In this document: in pieces, positions 35,375 through 45,184 of the stretch
Layout: each line of letters starts with the position of its first letter
How positions within the stretch are numbered: the stretch's first letter is position 1
Assembly: GCF_021533835.1 (NCBI RefSeq)
Contig: NZ_JAKFYQ010000001.1
Location: 1,770,079-1,834,078 of the forward strand
DNA: 64,000 nucleotides
Direction of reading: 5' to 3'
DNA from: Synechococcus sp. Nb3U1
GTDB taxonomy: Bacteria; Cyanobacteriota; Cyanobacteriia; Thermostichales; Thermostichaceae
The notes under the pieces: model-generated
What the model saw: the letters and a program-made list of their open reading frames with translations, nothing else
What the model was told of the DNA's origin: nothing
Databases searched by the model: none
Translations under genes and position numbers: made by a program

Positions 35375-36784
35375 TCAAGAGCTGATAACAGGATTCACCC
35401 CGGCAGTAACGTCAGCAACAGAATACTCCTGCCGTAAGGTTTGATCTTTCACCTGTTGTAAAGCCTCGGTCAGGGTCATCGGCCAGGGATCCGGCTGACG
35501 CAATTGTCTGACCCTGTCTGGAAGCCGGATCACCGAGGCTCGGCTGGTGTGGGCGATAGTCTCCAGATCCGGTAAGGGATCCAGGAGCACGCCTGAGGCC
35601 ATGATTTTGCGCAATAGGGGCTCAAAGCCAAGGGGCGGGGTTTCCTCCGCTTGACCGAGCCAATCGGAGCTGGGGCCGCGGAAGATCTGCTTGCGCCCTG
35701 GAAGGGTGGCCTTGGCAAAGGAGGCTTTGGCCACCGGGATCCCGTTAATTTCCACCAACTTGTAGACCCCATTCACCCCTTCCCCACTGACTAGGCGGGT
35801 GCCGACCCCGTAGCCGTTGATCGGGGCCTGAGAGCGATGCAGCCGTTCGATCTCGTATTCATCCAGATCGCCGCTCACAAAAACCGGGGATCCCTGGGGC
35901 AAAATTTGCTTCACCTGGCGAGAGAGATCCTCCAAATCTCCCGAGTCGATGCGCACTCCGCCAAATTCCCCCCGTGAGTCCAGTTGTTCGGGGTTCTCTG
36001 CTGCAAACAGGCGGGCTGCCGTACGCGCCCCTTGAATCGGATCGTAGGTATCGATCAAAAGGGCCGACTGGGGAAAATAGCGCTGGAAGGAACGAAACGC
36101 GCTGGTCTCATCTCCCGAAAGTGCTGCAATCGCCATCACCAGAGAATGGGCCATTGTCCCCGCCGGTTTCCGCCCCAATTTCAGGGCCGCCAACACGTTG
36201 GAGGTGGCGTTGAACCCCGCCGCTAGAGCGGCCCGGGCTGCCCACAACCCCGCCTGAGGGCCAAAGGCTCGCCGCGTCCCAAACTCCAGCAAGATTGACT
36301 CATCTCCTGCCGCATCCCGCATACGTGCCGCTTTAGTGGCGATCAGGGTTTGGTAATTAAAAGTAGACAACAGATAGGTCTCCACCAGTTGGGCTTGCCA
36401 CAAAGGCGCTTCGATGCGCACCAGGGGCTGGTTGGCAAAGATTGCGGATCCCTCCGGCACCGCCCAGACATCCCCCTGAAAACGGCAATTTTCCAAGAGG
36501 CCCCAAAACCGTTGCGGCGCGTCGACAAAAATGCCCGTGTCCCGCAACGCCTGCAAAGATTCCGGCGTGAAGTGCAGTTGCTGCAGGTATTCCACCGCTT
36601 GGGTGAGGCCCATGGCGATCAAATAGCCATAGTCGGGGGGCAGCCGACGCACAAACAGCTCAAAGGCAGCAGGTTGGGCCTCCAGACCCTCTCCCACATA
36701 GCAGGCAGCCATCGTGAACTGGTAGAAGTCCGTCAGCAGGCCATAGTCTTGGGGCTGCAGCGACGAAAAATTAGGGGCCAACAT
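35375..36784 (-). CDS. pncB: Nicotinate phosphoribosyltransferase
   Basis: PncB converts nicotinate and PRPP to nicotinate mononucleotide, the entry step of the NAD salvage pathway. The 469-residue protein has LTDFYQFTMAACYV at the N-terminus, the central STFNYQTLIATKAARM, GFNATSNVLAALKLGRKPAGTMAHSLVMA (with the family's catalytic His region), and the phosphate-binding GGVRIDSGDLEDLSRQVK. A palindromic operator-like site centred 40 bases before the ATG (36811-36837) matches sites before the divergent gene at 37031 and before the SSF symporter operon. Confidence 0.95.
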   Translation of the reverse strand: MLAPNFSSLQPQDYGLLTDFYQFTMAACYVGEGLEAQPAAFELFVRRLPPDYGYLIAMGLTQAVEYLQQLHFTPESLQALRDTGIFVDAPQRFWGLLENCRFQGDVWAVPEGSAIFANQPLVRIEAPLWQAQLVETYLLSTFNYQTLIATKAARMRDAAGDESILLEFGTRRAFGPQAGLWAARAALAAGFNATSNVLAALKLGRKPAGTMAHSLVMAIAALSGDETSAFRSFQRYFPQSALLIDTYDPIQGARTAARLFAAENPEQLDSRGEFGGVRIDSGDLEDLSRQVKQILPQGSPVFVSGDLDEYEIERLHRSQAPINGYGVGTRLVSGEGVNGVYKLVEINGIPVAKASFAKATLPGRKQIFRGPSSDWLGQAEETPPLGFEPLLRKIMASGVLLDPLPDLETIAHTSRASVIRLPDRVRQLRQPDPWPMTLTEALQQVKDQTLRQEYSVADVTAGVNPVISS

Positions 36785-36810: not shown

Positions 36811-36837
36811 TTATTTTAGTAAAACCTACCATAATAA
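36811..36837. promoter_or_regulatory. Operator-like palindrome A (pncB side)
   Basis: TTATTTTAGT and ACCATAATAA flank seven bases (AAAACCT); the arms match at 8 of 10 positions as an inverted repeat. The core TTAGT-N7-ACCAT spans 36816-36832. It lies 27 bases before the pncB start and so probably overlaps its promoter or leader. It shares its design with sites B (36957-36981), C (45137-45157) and D (45162-45184). Confidence 0.65.
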
Positions 36838-36956
36838 AGCGTAGCTGTCAGGGGATCCCTACCTCAGCTCAATCCTTGCGCGGAAAGGCTTTAACCTTTT
36901 CTACTTGAATCTCTTTCGGAGGTGACCCCCATTGACTGGACAACTCCAATCCTCTC

Positions 36957-36981
36957 ATTTATAGTGAAAACAACCATAAAT
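36957..36981. promoter_or_regulatory. Operator-like palindrome B (hydrolase side)
   Basis: ATTTATAGT and ACCATAAAT flank the seven bases GAAAACA; the arms match at 8 of 9 positions. The site ends 49 bases before the ATG of the isochorismatase-like gene at 37031. Its 21-base core is identical at 20 positions to the reverse complement of site C, 8 kb away. The regulator is not identified in the window. Confidence 0.7.
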
Positions 36982-37030: not shown

Positions 37031-38140
37031 ATGATCACCACTCTACAGGGGTTAACCGCCGATGCCCCTTCTACTGGGATCCTGCCCTTACCCCCCCACT
37101 TTCAGGTTGAGCGGGTGGGAGAAGTGTGGCGTGTGCCCTACTCACAACGGGCTGCAGAAGCCGAGATCTGGGCCAAACAGCACGGGATCCCTGCAGCGGC
37201 TGCGGATCGGGTACGGGTGGGCTTGCTGCTGATCGATGTGCAGAATACCTTTTGCATTCCGGGGTTTGAATTGTTTGTCGCCGGCGGCTCCGGATTGGGG
37301 GCGGTAGAGGATAATCAGCGCCTGTGCCAGTTCATTTACCGGAACCTGGCCCAGATCACCCAGATCATTCCCACCCTCGACACCCATACGGCCATGCAGA
37401 TCTTCCACCCGATCTTTTGGATGGATGCGCAGGGATCCCATCCGGAGCCGGCGACCTCGATCTCTGTGGCCGATATTCGCTCCGGTCGCTGGCAGGTCAA
37501 CCCCGCCGTGGCTGCTAGCCTAGTCCAGGGGGATCTGCCCACATTACAAGCCCATGTTCTCCACTATGCTGAGCAACTGGAGCAGGGCGGGAAATATCCC
37601 CTGATCGTCTGGCCCTACCACTCCATGTTGGGGGGCATTGGCCATGCCTTGGTGCCGGCGGTGGAGGAGGCCATTTTCTTCCACAGCATCGCCCGCTTCA
37701 GCCAGGCCAGTCTGGAACTGAAAGGGGCCAACCCCCTCACTGAAAACTATTCGGTGCTCAGTCCTGAAGTCTTGACTGGGCCAACCGGGGATCCGATCGA
37801 CGAAAAAAACAATCCATTGATTCGCTATTTGCTGGGGTTTGATGCCTTGATTGTGGCGGGCCAAGCCAAAAGTCATTGTCTGGCCTGGACGGTGAGCGAC
37901 CTCCTGCAGGAAATTCAGGCCCAGGATCCGAAACTGGCCCGGAAGATCTATCTTTTGGAAGATTGCACCTCGGCGGTGGTGATCCCAGGGGTGGTGGATT
38001 TTAGTGAGCAGGCGGAAGCCGCCTTTGCCAGGTTTGCGGCAGCAGGCATGCACCGGGTGCGCTCCACAGACTCGATGTGGGATTGGCCTGATTTCCCCCG
38101 GGATCCTGAGGGAGCTTCACCGACCCAACATCCGGTATGA
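37031..38140 (+). CDS. Large isochorismatase-fold cysteine hydrolase, nicotinamidase-like
   Basis: The 369-residue protein carries the isochorismatase fold: the Asp strand [38 protein letters not shown], a conserved [16 protein letters not shown] segment like the PncA metal/active-site region, and the nucleophile Cys in [19 protein letters not shown]. It is far longer than a normal nicotinamidase (about 200 residues), with insertions of its own. Divergent from pncB and preceded by operator site B, it is likely a nicotinamidase-type or related amidase in NAD salvage. The start is the ATG at 37031; no clear ribosome-binding site is visible. Confidence 0.82.
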
Positions 38141-42505: not shown

Positions 42506-43363
42506 ATGAACATCTCGCAACTGCAAACCCTGGTGGCGGTGGTGGAGCAGGGCAACTTCAGCGATGCTGCTCTGCAATTGCACATTTCTCAGTCGGCGGT
42601 GAGTCGGGCCATTGCCAGCCTTGAAGAGGAATTGGGGGTGAGGCTGCTGGTGCGCGGTCGGTTTGGGGCACACCTAACCCCGGTGGGGGAGCGCCTACTG
42701 CGCCATGTGCGCAAAATGCTGCAACTGCGCGAACAAATGGATTATGAGGCCAACCTGGAAAAAGGCCTGCGGGGAGGAAGTGTGCGGGTGGCCGCTTTTC
42801 GCAGTGCCGCCACTCATCTACTGCCGCCGGTGATCGCCCGCTTTCGTCAACAATTTCCGCAAATCACCCTCGCCCTCACCGAAGAGGATCCGGCCACGGT
42901 AGAACAGCTGCTGCGCTCCGGTCAGGTGGATATTGGCCTATTGCCGCTGCCCCGTAATGCAGACGATCTGGAAACTTGGGAGATTGCCCGCGATGAATTT
43001 ATTCTGTTAATCCCTCACAGTTTTGGATCCCTGCCGGAAACCCTCACTTGGGCCGATCTCTCCCAATTTTCCTATATTCTCTACAACTACGCCGAATGCA
43101 CCACAGCGGTGCGGAACCACTGGGAAGCTGCCCAACAGACCCTCAAGGTAGCCTACCTGGTGAAAGAAGACTCCACGATTGTGAACATGGTCGCCCAGGG
43201 CCTGGGAGCTGCCATTTTGCCACGGCTGGCCGCCATCCCCATTCCAGACGGGATCCAGATCCGCCGCTTACCGATCCCCTTGGAGCGAGTGATCGGTGCT
43301 GCGATTCTGGCCTCTGCCCTGCATCCACCTGCGGTATTTGCCTTCCTGGAGGCTTTGCGGTAG
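42506..43363 (+). CDS. LysR-family transcriptional regulator
   Basis: The 285-residue protein has a LysR winged helix-turn-helix at residues about 1-60 (LQTLVAVVEQGNFSDAALQLHISQSAVSRAIASLEEELGVRLLVR) and an effector-binding domain of two alpha/beta lobes (VRVAAFRSAATHLLPPVIARF, YLVKEDSTIVNMVAQGLGAAILPRLA). It resembles CynR/CbbR-like regulators in general layout, but the inducer is unknown. The adjacent divergent cupin gene and the convergent SSF gene (16-base gap) are candidate targets. Imperfect dyads lie at about 42378-42412. Confidence 0.88.
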   Translation: MNISQLQTLVAVVEQGNFSDAALQLHISQSAVSRAIASLEEELGVRLLVRGRFGAHLTPVGERLLRHVRKMLQLREQMDYEANLEKGLRGGSVRVAAFRSAATHLLPPVIARFRQQFPQITLALTEEDPATVEQLLRSGQVDIGLLPLPRNADDLETWEIARDEFILLIPHSFGSLPETLTWADLSQFSYILYNYAECTTAVRNHWEAAQQTLKVAYLVKEDSTIVNMVAQGLGAAILPRLAAIPIPDGIQIRRLPIPLERVIGAAILASALHPPAVFAFLEALR

Positions 43364-43378
43364 CAACCATCCCATTGG

Positions 43379-44869
43379 CTAGGAAGGGTGCCCTTGGGAT
43401 CCCGATTGATCCTGGGTTGGTTCTGCCCAAGGGCCTTGATAGTATTCCGCCACCCGTTCCGCTGGGGGCTGGGTGAGCAGGCTAACCCCGATCAACACTC
43501 CACTCCCCACCAGCACCGCCGGGATCACCGGTAGCCAACCCAGTCTCCACTCCTGCGGCAACACCCCAGCCAGCCAGCCCAAGGTGAGTACGCTCGACAC
43601 GATTCCGCCGGCCACTGCCCCCGCCCGACTGGTGCGCTTCCAGTACAAACCGGCGATCAAGACCGGAAACAGCATGGCGCTGCCCTGAAAGCTCCAGGTG
43701 GCAATTTCTACGATCACCCCCGGTGGATTGAGGGCAATAACAAAGGAAACCAAGGCAATCAGCAACACCACGATCCGCCCCAACCGTCCCTCCTGCAGAG
43801 GGGATAGACGTCGGTTGAAGTAGGTAAAGACCCAATCTCGTGTGACCAAAGAGCTGGTGGTGAGCAATTGCGAGTCAGCGGTGGACATCAAGGCCGCCAA
43901 GGCGGCTGAAATCACTAGAGCCGCCAGCCCGGCGGGCAGGGTTTGCAGCATCAGGGGCATAATCTGATCCGCCTGCTCCAAGCTGGGAAAAACCAAGCGT
44001 CCCCAAACCCCGATTAGAGCTGCCGGAAAGAAAATCAGCAAAATCAAAAGCGGCCAAACCACCATCATTGTTTTGAACACCTGCTCACTTTTGGCCATAT
44101 AAAAGCGTTGGAAAATTTGCGGAAACAGAGGAACCGCCATGAAAATCAACAGTTGATAGCTGATTAATCCCTGCCAACTCCAGCGACCGGTTGGCCCCGG
44201 CAACCTCAGCCAGGGATCCAACTCTGCCCCGGCCTCAGTCCCCAAGGAACTGGCAATCATCACGAAGGCAGTCCCCATGCCCAGAAGCATGATCAGCCCC
44301 TGTAGGGTATCCGTCCATACCACCGCCTGGGATCCCCCCAGCAGCACATAGGCCAAGATCACCACCGCCATTAGCACCGCCAAGGGCCAGTAGGGGATCC
44401 CGTCCCCCAGCACCGCCGAGAGAGTACGCGCCCCGGCGATGATCTGAATGCTGATGTAGGGGGCGGTAAACAGCAGAGCACTGAGGGAGTAGAGCGAAGC
44501 CAGCACTGGGCTTCCGAAACGATGGCCGAAAAACTCCGATGGGGTAATGAATTGGAAGTGTTTGGCCGCCAGCCAAAGCCGATAGCCCAAGAGAAAAAAC
44601 AACACCGAAATGAGGGCATCTGTCACCCCCACTCCCAAAAAGATCCCCAACCCGTGGGTGTAGCCATCCGCCGGGACGCCGATAAAGGTAAAGGCACTCA
44701 GCAGGGTCGCCAACATCGTCAGCGTCAATACCAGGGATCCCAAACCCCGCCCCGCCAAAAAATAGCTGACCGGATCCTGCCCCGTATGGCGGTAACTCCA
44801 AAAGCCAATCCCCGCCAACACCAGCAGATAGGCCCCCACGATCCCAACGCTCAAAACCGTATCAGTCAT
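43379..44869 (-). CDS. Sodium:solute symporter (SSF family)
   Basis: The 496-residue permease has about 13 hydrophobic spans and SSF signatures such as LAGRGLGSLVLTLTMLATLLSAFTFIGVPADGYTHGLG near the N-terminus, AYVLLGGSQAVVWTDTLQGLIMLLG, and ALAALMSTADSQLLTTSSLVTRDW. SSF proteins import solutes such as proline, pantothenate, acetate or sugars with Na+. The substrate cannot be read from the sequence. It overlaps the DUF3311 gene upstream by eight bases, and that operon is preceded by operator sites C and D, which also occur before NAD-salvage genes. Confidence 0.9.
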   Translation of the reverse strand: MTDTVLSVGIVGAYLLVLAGIGFWSYRHTGQDPVSYFLAGRGLGSLVLTLTMLATLLSAFTFIGVPADGYTHGLGIFLGVGVTDALISVLFFLLGYRLWLAAKHFQFITPSEFFGHRFGSPVLASLYSLSALLFTAPYISIQIIAGARTLSAVLGDGIPYWPLAVLMAVVILAYVLLGGSQAVVWTDTLQGLIMLLGMGTAFVMIASSLGTEAGAELDPWLRLPGPTGRWSWQGLISYQLLIFMAVPLFPQIFQRFYMAKSEQVFKTMMVVWPLLILLIFFPAALIGVWGRLVFPSLEQADQIMPLMLQTLPAGLAALVISAALAALMSTADSQLLTTSSLVTRDWVFTYFNRRLSPLQEGRLGRIVVLLIALVSFVIALNPPGVIVEIATWSFQGSAMLFPVLIAGLYWKRTSRAGAVAGGIVSSVLTLGWLAGVLPQEWRLGWLPVIPAVLVGSGVLIGVSLLTQPPAERVAEYYQGPWAEPTQDQSGSQGHPS

Positions 44870-45119
44870 TGCCCATCCTCGGCCAACAGGCCCACACCAC
44901 GTACAGATTCAAAGGCACCAACAATAGGATGATCAGCCCCGCCCCCAGATACCAAACCGGGATCCCGAAGATCCGCGGTTCTGAGGAGCGAGTGCCCCAG
45001 AATGTCAGCAGCCACAGCAGCGGATAGAACCCCAGGACCCAAGCCCGCCGCACCCGCCCAAACCCTGAGTTGGCGGATCCGTTGACACCATCCAACGAAG
45101 AGGGATCCATGCCAGACAA
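44862..45119 (-). CDS. DUF3311-like small membrane protein, SSF partner
   Basis: The product (85 residues from a TTG at 45117-45119) has two hydrophobic spans (VLGFYPLLWLLTFWGTR and VWYLGAGLIILLLVPLNLYVVWACW), the DUF3311 layout. Such small proteins are often encoded next to SSF permeases and may assist them. I chose the TTG because AAGGAGG (45127-45133) lies seven bases upstream; the ATG at 45108-45110 is an alternative. A GTG at 45152 would start inside operator site C. The stop overlaps the SSF start by eight bases. Confidence 0.75.
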   Translation of the reverse strand: MSGMDPSSLDGVNGSANSGFGRVRRAWVLGFYPLLWLLTFWGTRSSEPRIFGIPVWYLGAGLIILLLVPLNLYVVWACWPRMGND

Positions 45120-45136: not shown

Positions 45137-45157
45137 TTATGGTAGTTTTCACTATAA
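45137..45157. promoter_or_regulatory. Operator-like palindrome C (SSF operon)
   Basis: TTATGGT and ACTATAA flank the seven bases AGTTTTC. The arms match at 6 of 7 positions as an inverted repeat. Its reverse complement equals the site B core at 20 of 21 positions. It lies three bases upstream of the SD of the DUF3311 gene, so a bound regulator would block transcription through this point. Confidence 0.7.
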
Positions 45158-45161
45158 CAGG

Positions 45162-45184
45162 ATTATGGTGTTTTTCACCAAAAA
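45162..45184. promoter_or_regulatory. Operator-like palindrome D (SSF operon)
   Basis: ATTATGGT and ACCAAAAA flank GTTTTTC. The ATGGT-N7-ACC core (45165-45181) matches the same design as site C, with weaker outer arms (5 of 8). Its centre is 26 bases from the centre of site C, so two dimers could bind side by side on nearly the same face of the helix. Confidence 0.5.

Follow-up and report, generated by a model that had tools for sequence, protein, structure and literature searches.

Palindromic sites ahead of NAD salvage genes in Synechococcus sp. Nb3U1 most likely belong to an NrtR regulon with two new candidate members

A 64,000-nt stretch of the Synechococcus sp. Nb3U1 genome (hereafter, the window) was found to carry four palindromic sites, located ahead of pncB, its divergent neighbour encoding a candidate nicotinamidase, and a sodium:solute symporter operon, and a further site was recovered elsewhere in the genome ahead of nadE. 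These palindromes are very probably operators of NrtR, a repressor of NAD metabolism that is related to Nudix proteins, responds to ADP-ribose and has its gene elsewhere in the genome. The system is most likely an NrtR regulon of the kind already described in cyanobacteria, where NrtR sites were reportedly defined by Rodionov et al. 2008 (Nucleic Acids Res 36:2047), with the symporter operon and the nicotinamidase-like gene as two new candidate members. Since both the regulator and its logic are already known, the switch itself is unsurprising; the value lies in the functional assignment of the transporter and the hydrolase, with the loss of the operators in an NrtR-less genus mate serving as a clean natural control.

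Sites were scored against the pattern TTATRGT-N7-ACYATAA (i.e. two 7-base arms around seven bases). Operator A (TTTTAGTAAAACCTACCATAA; 36814..36834, minus strand) has one mismatch and ends 29 nt ahead of the pncB ATG. Operator B (TTATAGTGAAAACAACCATAA; 36959..36979, plus strand) has no mismatches and lies 51 nt ahead of the ATG of the nicotinamidase-like (isochorismatase-like) gene. The symporter operon is associated with operator C (TTATGGTAGTTTTCACTATAA; 45137..45157, minus strand), again without mismatches, and with operator D (TTATGGTGTTTTTCACCAAAA; 45163..45183, minus strand), which has one mismatch and stands in tandem with C. All four sites claimed by the original prediction exist, but only B and C fit the pattern exactly. 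Direct reading of the sequence reproduced its figures of 20 shared letters out of 21 between B and the reverse complement of C, and of 26 bases from the start of one of C and D to that of the other. It had also placed every site close before a start codon. Operator C overlaps an in-frame GTG at 45152, and the likely ATG of the small gene that heads the operon is at 45110. Within the 64-kb window, matches with at most one mismatch numbered four against 0.013 expected, and those with up to three mismatches numbered five against two expected. As there was no excess at three mismatches, weight was given to the near-perfect matches only.

A blind scan of the whole genome (3.49 Mb) returned six places with at most one mismatch, compared with 0.7 expected from base composition, and five of the six precede pncB, the nicotinamidase-like gene, nadE or the symporter operon (i.e. 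operators A–D and the nadE site). The nadE site (C1:650310; TTATGGTGAAATCTACCATAT) lies approximately 60 nt ahead of the gene for glutamine-dependent NAD synthetase, identified by NCBIfam NF010588 at 592 bits, and its recovery by the blind scan adds the last enzyme of the same pathway to the regulon. The neighbours of the remaining place (C2:653551, one mismatch) include HNH-endonuclease and kinase-like genes and no NAD gene, and it was judged to be a chance match. Eight places with two mismatches were also read and lie in or near mostly unrelated genes, none of them convincingly ahead of an NAD gene. A candidate at C1:87237, located 3' of an NAD-kinase-like gene and with one GT core gone, was likewise attributed to chance. 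No convincing non-NAD target of the palindrome was seen in this genome.

Conservation was surveyed upstream of pncB, which occupies 35375..36784 of the window (minus strand) and is certain in its identity as the gene for nicotinate phosphoribosyltransferase (NCBIfam NF006696, 580.7 bits, over the cut-off). The survey drew on 30 loci and 60 fetched regions, of which six were left out where the start was not located, giving 84 cyanobacterial genomes. The palindrome was present ahead of pncB with at most two mismatches in 81 of these genomes (none in 29, one in 45 and two in seven), compared with 0.6% of shuffled regions, and the GT and AC around the seven central bases were kept almost without exception. 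NrtR-positive genomes without a good pncB site were G167, which has a divergent pncB, and G163, where the site has three mismatches. It is position ahead of pncB, and not the number of matches, that separates genomes; pattern counts per genome were uninformative, with a reversed control pattern equally frequent in many of them. Operators A–D are real, conserved sites. The original prediction of a real regulon for NAD-precursor salvage had named its own refutation, namely many unrelated copies in the genome or a lack of conservation ahead of pncB; it survived both parts of this test, and the addition of nadE extended it.

Gene order across cyanobacteria links the palindrome to nrtR. Where the palindrome precedes pncB, this gene is often the first of a run that includes nrtR and nadE. 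In most cyanobacteria nadE directly follows nrtR, and pncB is found a short way upstream of nrtR. In at least two loci the palindrome was also found close to nadA, ahead of the gene. NrtR orthologues were detected in most of 194 cyanobacterial genomes (E below 1e-40 in 155), and pncB was present in 139 of the 155 NrtR-positive genomes versus one of the 39 others (Fisher p 2e-26, a value that ignores phylogeny). As side observations, pncB was almost confined to cyanobacteria with NrtR, and NrtR was missing in all members listed of one family with small genomes (f3, picocyanobacteria-like).

Five Nudix proteins are encoded in the Nb3U1 genome, one of which has a C-terminal winged helix. The gene for this NrtR-family protein (C3:232450-233214; 255 aa) is on a contig other than that of the sites, and its product contains NUDIX, NrtR_WHD and AraR_C domains according to Pfam (PF00293 at 54.6 bits and PF21906 at 65.6 bits, both over the cut-off). 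The best PDB matches, both full-length, were AraR 5bs6 (E 3e-36) and Shewanella NrtR 3gz5/3gz6 (E 2e-32), and the top NCBIfam match was an ADPR-responsive repressor model at E 1e-36, below the cut-off of that model. The Nudix signature GX5EX7REUXEEXGU is absent from the protein, in which RILAEKIRV replaces REUXEEXGU, and an intact box is found in three other Nudix proteins of the same genome. In a check of five NrtR orthologues, none had an intact box. A broken signature is a feature of characterised NrtR proteins as well (PMC4666351). No site was found within ∼1.5 kb of nrtR in this genome or at 29 other loci, giving no sign of autoregulation. The gene is here unlinked to its proposed targets, which counts against the NrtR reading. 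While it is literally true that no candidate regulator adjoins the sites, as originally stated, another contig carries an NrtR-family gene, and the presence and absence of this gene track those of the sites; the accompanying doubt that the motif is an NrtR site was not borne out.

NrtR is missing from only one genus mate, G068, whose genome (100% complete) is a single contig and which is also the sole pncB-positive genome without NrtR; it provides a clean natural control. No palindrome match within one mismatch was found in the whole G068 genome. The intergenic region between pncB and the nicotinamidase-like gene has lost sites A and B, and no site lies ahead of nadE or the symporter gene, yet all four genes are retained. 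Sites A and B are kept without mismatches in all four NrtR-positive genus mates (G057, G079, G029 and G004), and the nadE site departs from the pattern at one position in three of them (G057, G029 and G004); G079 has only a degenerate version. Regulator and sites co-occur and are lost together; as the co-loss is a single event, it amounts to a strong hint and not to a statistical test. A repeat of ∼300 bp was noticed beside nrtR in G004 (L018 1204-1500), and the nrtR-less G068 holds ten near-full-length copies of it (at least 91% identity) along with many shorter ones. This repeat might have helped the loss or rearrangement of nrtR.

The sole promoter-like sequence found in the intergenic region between pncB and the nicotinamidase-like gene is of the sigma-70 type (TGGACA-17-TATAGT; 36937..36965, plus strand) and overlaps operator B, the left arm of which, TATAGT, is its -10 hexamer. 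A -35/-10 pair at B with a spacing of 17–18 nt was found in all five NrtR-positive members of the genus and is absent in G068. A weaker promoter-like pair lies between D and C, and its end is the TATAGT arm of C. Because operator B includes the -10 box, repression at this site is likely to act by blocking RNA polymerase. We propose that, when NAD is plentiful, an NrtR dimer would occupy both TTATRGT half-sites, covering the -10 box at operator B and keeping RNA polymerase out. Consumption of NAD would free ADP-ribose, which would bind the enzymatically dead Nudix domain and cause NrtR to leave the DNA. Expression of pncB, the divergent nicotinamidase-like gene and nadE would then rise, and in a sub-lineage the small-protein/SSF-symporter operon would rise with them, supporting import of niacin or a related NAD precursor. 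What we show directly is the sites and the regulator gene, that they are conserved and lost together, that operator and promoter overlap, and that the hydrolase has residues and a fold of the nicotinamidase type. Binding and repression, as well as release by ADP-ribose, would carry over to this organism from characterised NrtR proteins, among them those of Synechocystis and Shewanella, which ADP-ribose releases from DNA (PMC4666351).

Other explanations of the palindromes were weighed against NrtR. The sole DNA-binding regulator identified near the sites is of the LysR type; its gene (42506-43363) lies a short way downstream of the symporter gene and is convergent with it. This gene adjoins the symporter gene in none of the five genus mates, even the two that keep C and D, and it was rejected as the binder for this want of synteny. 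Sites of LysR proteins usually have a T-N11-A core, which the palindrome lacks, and across cyanobacteria the motif follows nrtR-pncB-nadE gene runs and not this gene, making binding by this regulator extremely unlikely. NrtR motifs differ strongly from lineage to lineage (PMC4666351), which means that the regulator cannot be told from the motif by itself, and the sites could belong to another repressor of NAD metabolism (NiaR-, NadR- or NadQ-like, or new), with NrtR serving other targets. We consider this very unlikely, given that nrtR adjoins nadE and lies near a palindrome-preceded pncB in many genomes and that its loss in G068 coincides with the loss of every site. NiaR was rejected specifically, as its 3H domain (PF02829) had no match in this genome and was detected in two control genomes. 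Lastly, the lack of excess in the window at three mismatches would suit a chance origin as AT-rich palindromes; however, the four matches within one mismatch against the 0.013 expected, together with the pncB sites in 81 of 84 genomes, refute this reading and reduce its probability to a negligible level.

A different division of the sites would leave A, B and the nadE site to NrtR and assign C and D to another regulator, or give the symporter a cargo unrelated to NAD. The symporter gene (43379..44869, minus strand) encodes a member of the SSF/SLC5 family (Pfam SSF, 162.3 bits, against a gathering cut-off of 22.8) and is a candidate niacin-type transporter. Its nearest curated family is the pantothenate family PanF (TIGR02119), where its 194 bits are under the 328-bit cut-off and do not make it a PanF member. 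Its remote PDB relatives include SMCT1 and the sodium-dependent multivitamin transporter; SMCT1 carries nicotinate. The first gene of the operon (44862..45110, minus strand) encodes a conserved, membrane-protein-like product of 96 aa that reached no Pfam family (best DUF997, at E 1.8), and the label DUF3311 given to it earlier found no support. Its pairing with the symporter is reminiscent of yhdT-panF of E. coli. The C/D pair is kept only in this genome (G000), G057 and G079, i.e. three of the six genus members, with a spacing of 25–26 nt. Two NrtR-positive genus mates, G004 and G029, have the symporter and lack C and D, so symporter control does not extend to the whole genus. Beyond the genus, no close orthologue of the symporter was detected; a contig search returned two loci, both from very close relatives. 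This restricted distribution and the proximity to PanF favour such a division or cargo, but the agreement of B with the reverse complement of C, the tandem spacing kept in G057 and G079, and the lack of a convincing non-NAD target in this genome make either unlikely. With NrtR acting at C and D, the symporter is probably a sub-lineage-restricted, niacin-related member of the regulon, its regulon membership being the sole guide to its substrate.

The gene divergent from pncB (37031..38140, plus strand) encodes an isochorismatase-fold hydrolase of 369 aa. Searches of NCBIfam and Pfam, the curated PncA model included, gave no match over the cut-off, and for this reason we describe the protein as nicotinamidase-like and do not file it as a PncA member. 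The catalytic residues D69, K231 and C283 are invariant across 13 orthologues, as are the metal-type residues D117, H119, H126 and H197, which were assigned by motif. In an alignment with Mycobacterium tuberculosis PncA (3pl1), D69 falls on catalytic D8 and C283 on catalytic C138; K231 was assigned by motif. For the AlphaFold model of the protein (mean pLDDT 74.7), the nicotinamidase 2wta ranked first in Foldseek (E 1.6e-6), and the first 14 rows in VIA-align were all nicotinamidases (Z 15.7 to 12.7), with other isochorismatase-fold enzymes appearing from 12.5. A PDB sequence-profile search with an alignment of the nicotinamidase-like proteins found nothing. The genome has five other isochorismatase paralogues, which look like biuret hydrolase or RutB and all stay below the cut-off of the PncA model. 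One of these paralogues matches the biuret amidohydrolase model NF050097 in full (426 bits), and its gene lies beside an ABC transporter gene. Based on its nicotinamidase-type residues, the fold of its model and the different affinities of its paralogues, the 37031-38140 protein was called a candidate nicotinamidase. It has the same catalytic D/K/C and metal D/H/H/H residues as PncA (2wta, 3v8e, 1ilw and 3pl1); however, at 369 aa it is longer than those enzymes (∼190–215 aa), with an extra N-terminal stretch and insertions. Enzymes of this long type are widespread in cyanobacteria. Palindrome control of the gene was seen only in this cyanobacterial family: among eleven loci with nicotinamidase-like orthologues, from other families or incomplete relatives, no palindrome was found except in G091.

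The cyanobacterial NrtR regulon (PMC4666351, PMC3840689) has in common with the present system a Nudix and winged-helix regulator with a broken Nudix box, a palindromic operator, and NAD-pathway targets (here pncB and nadE; nadA in other cyanobacteria). The present system differs in that nrtR lies outside the pncB/nadE gene run, and that the nicotinamidase-like gene and, in part of the genus, the small-protein/SSF operon are candidate additional targets. MsNrtR of Mycobacterium smegmatis (PMC6800001) is of the same family and also controls NAD synthesis; its operator likewise consists of two arms around seven bases, and its binding is disrupted by ADP-ribose. The MsNrtR arm, however, is GTTTTCGA as compared with TTATRGT here, and its targets are the de novo nadA/B/C operon and itself. 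The closest solved structure by sequence, Bacteroides AraR (PMC4666351; 5bs6), has the same two-domain build but answers L-arabinose and controls sugar genes, whereas the targets here are NAD genes.

These assignments place a transporter of unassigned substrate, and a widespread hydrolase that curated models do not name, under an NAD-responsive repressor, and niacin uptake and nicotinamide deamidation in cyanobacteria thereby become directly testable. We tentatively suggest, with somewhat less than even confidence, that the small-protein/SSF pair may carry out Na-coupled uptake of nicotinate or nicotinamide and that the long isochorismatase-fold enzyme may be an unrecognised nicotinamidase of cyanobacteria. 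If both were true, import and salvage of niacin in these cyanobacteria, from uptake through PncA and PncB to NadE, would form a complete route switched by NrtR. A separate palindrome, GGGATCCC, was present in 96 copies in the window (1-64000), 62-fold over the expectation from base composition, and its behaviour is that of a variant of HIP1, the iterated palindrome of cyanobacteria.
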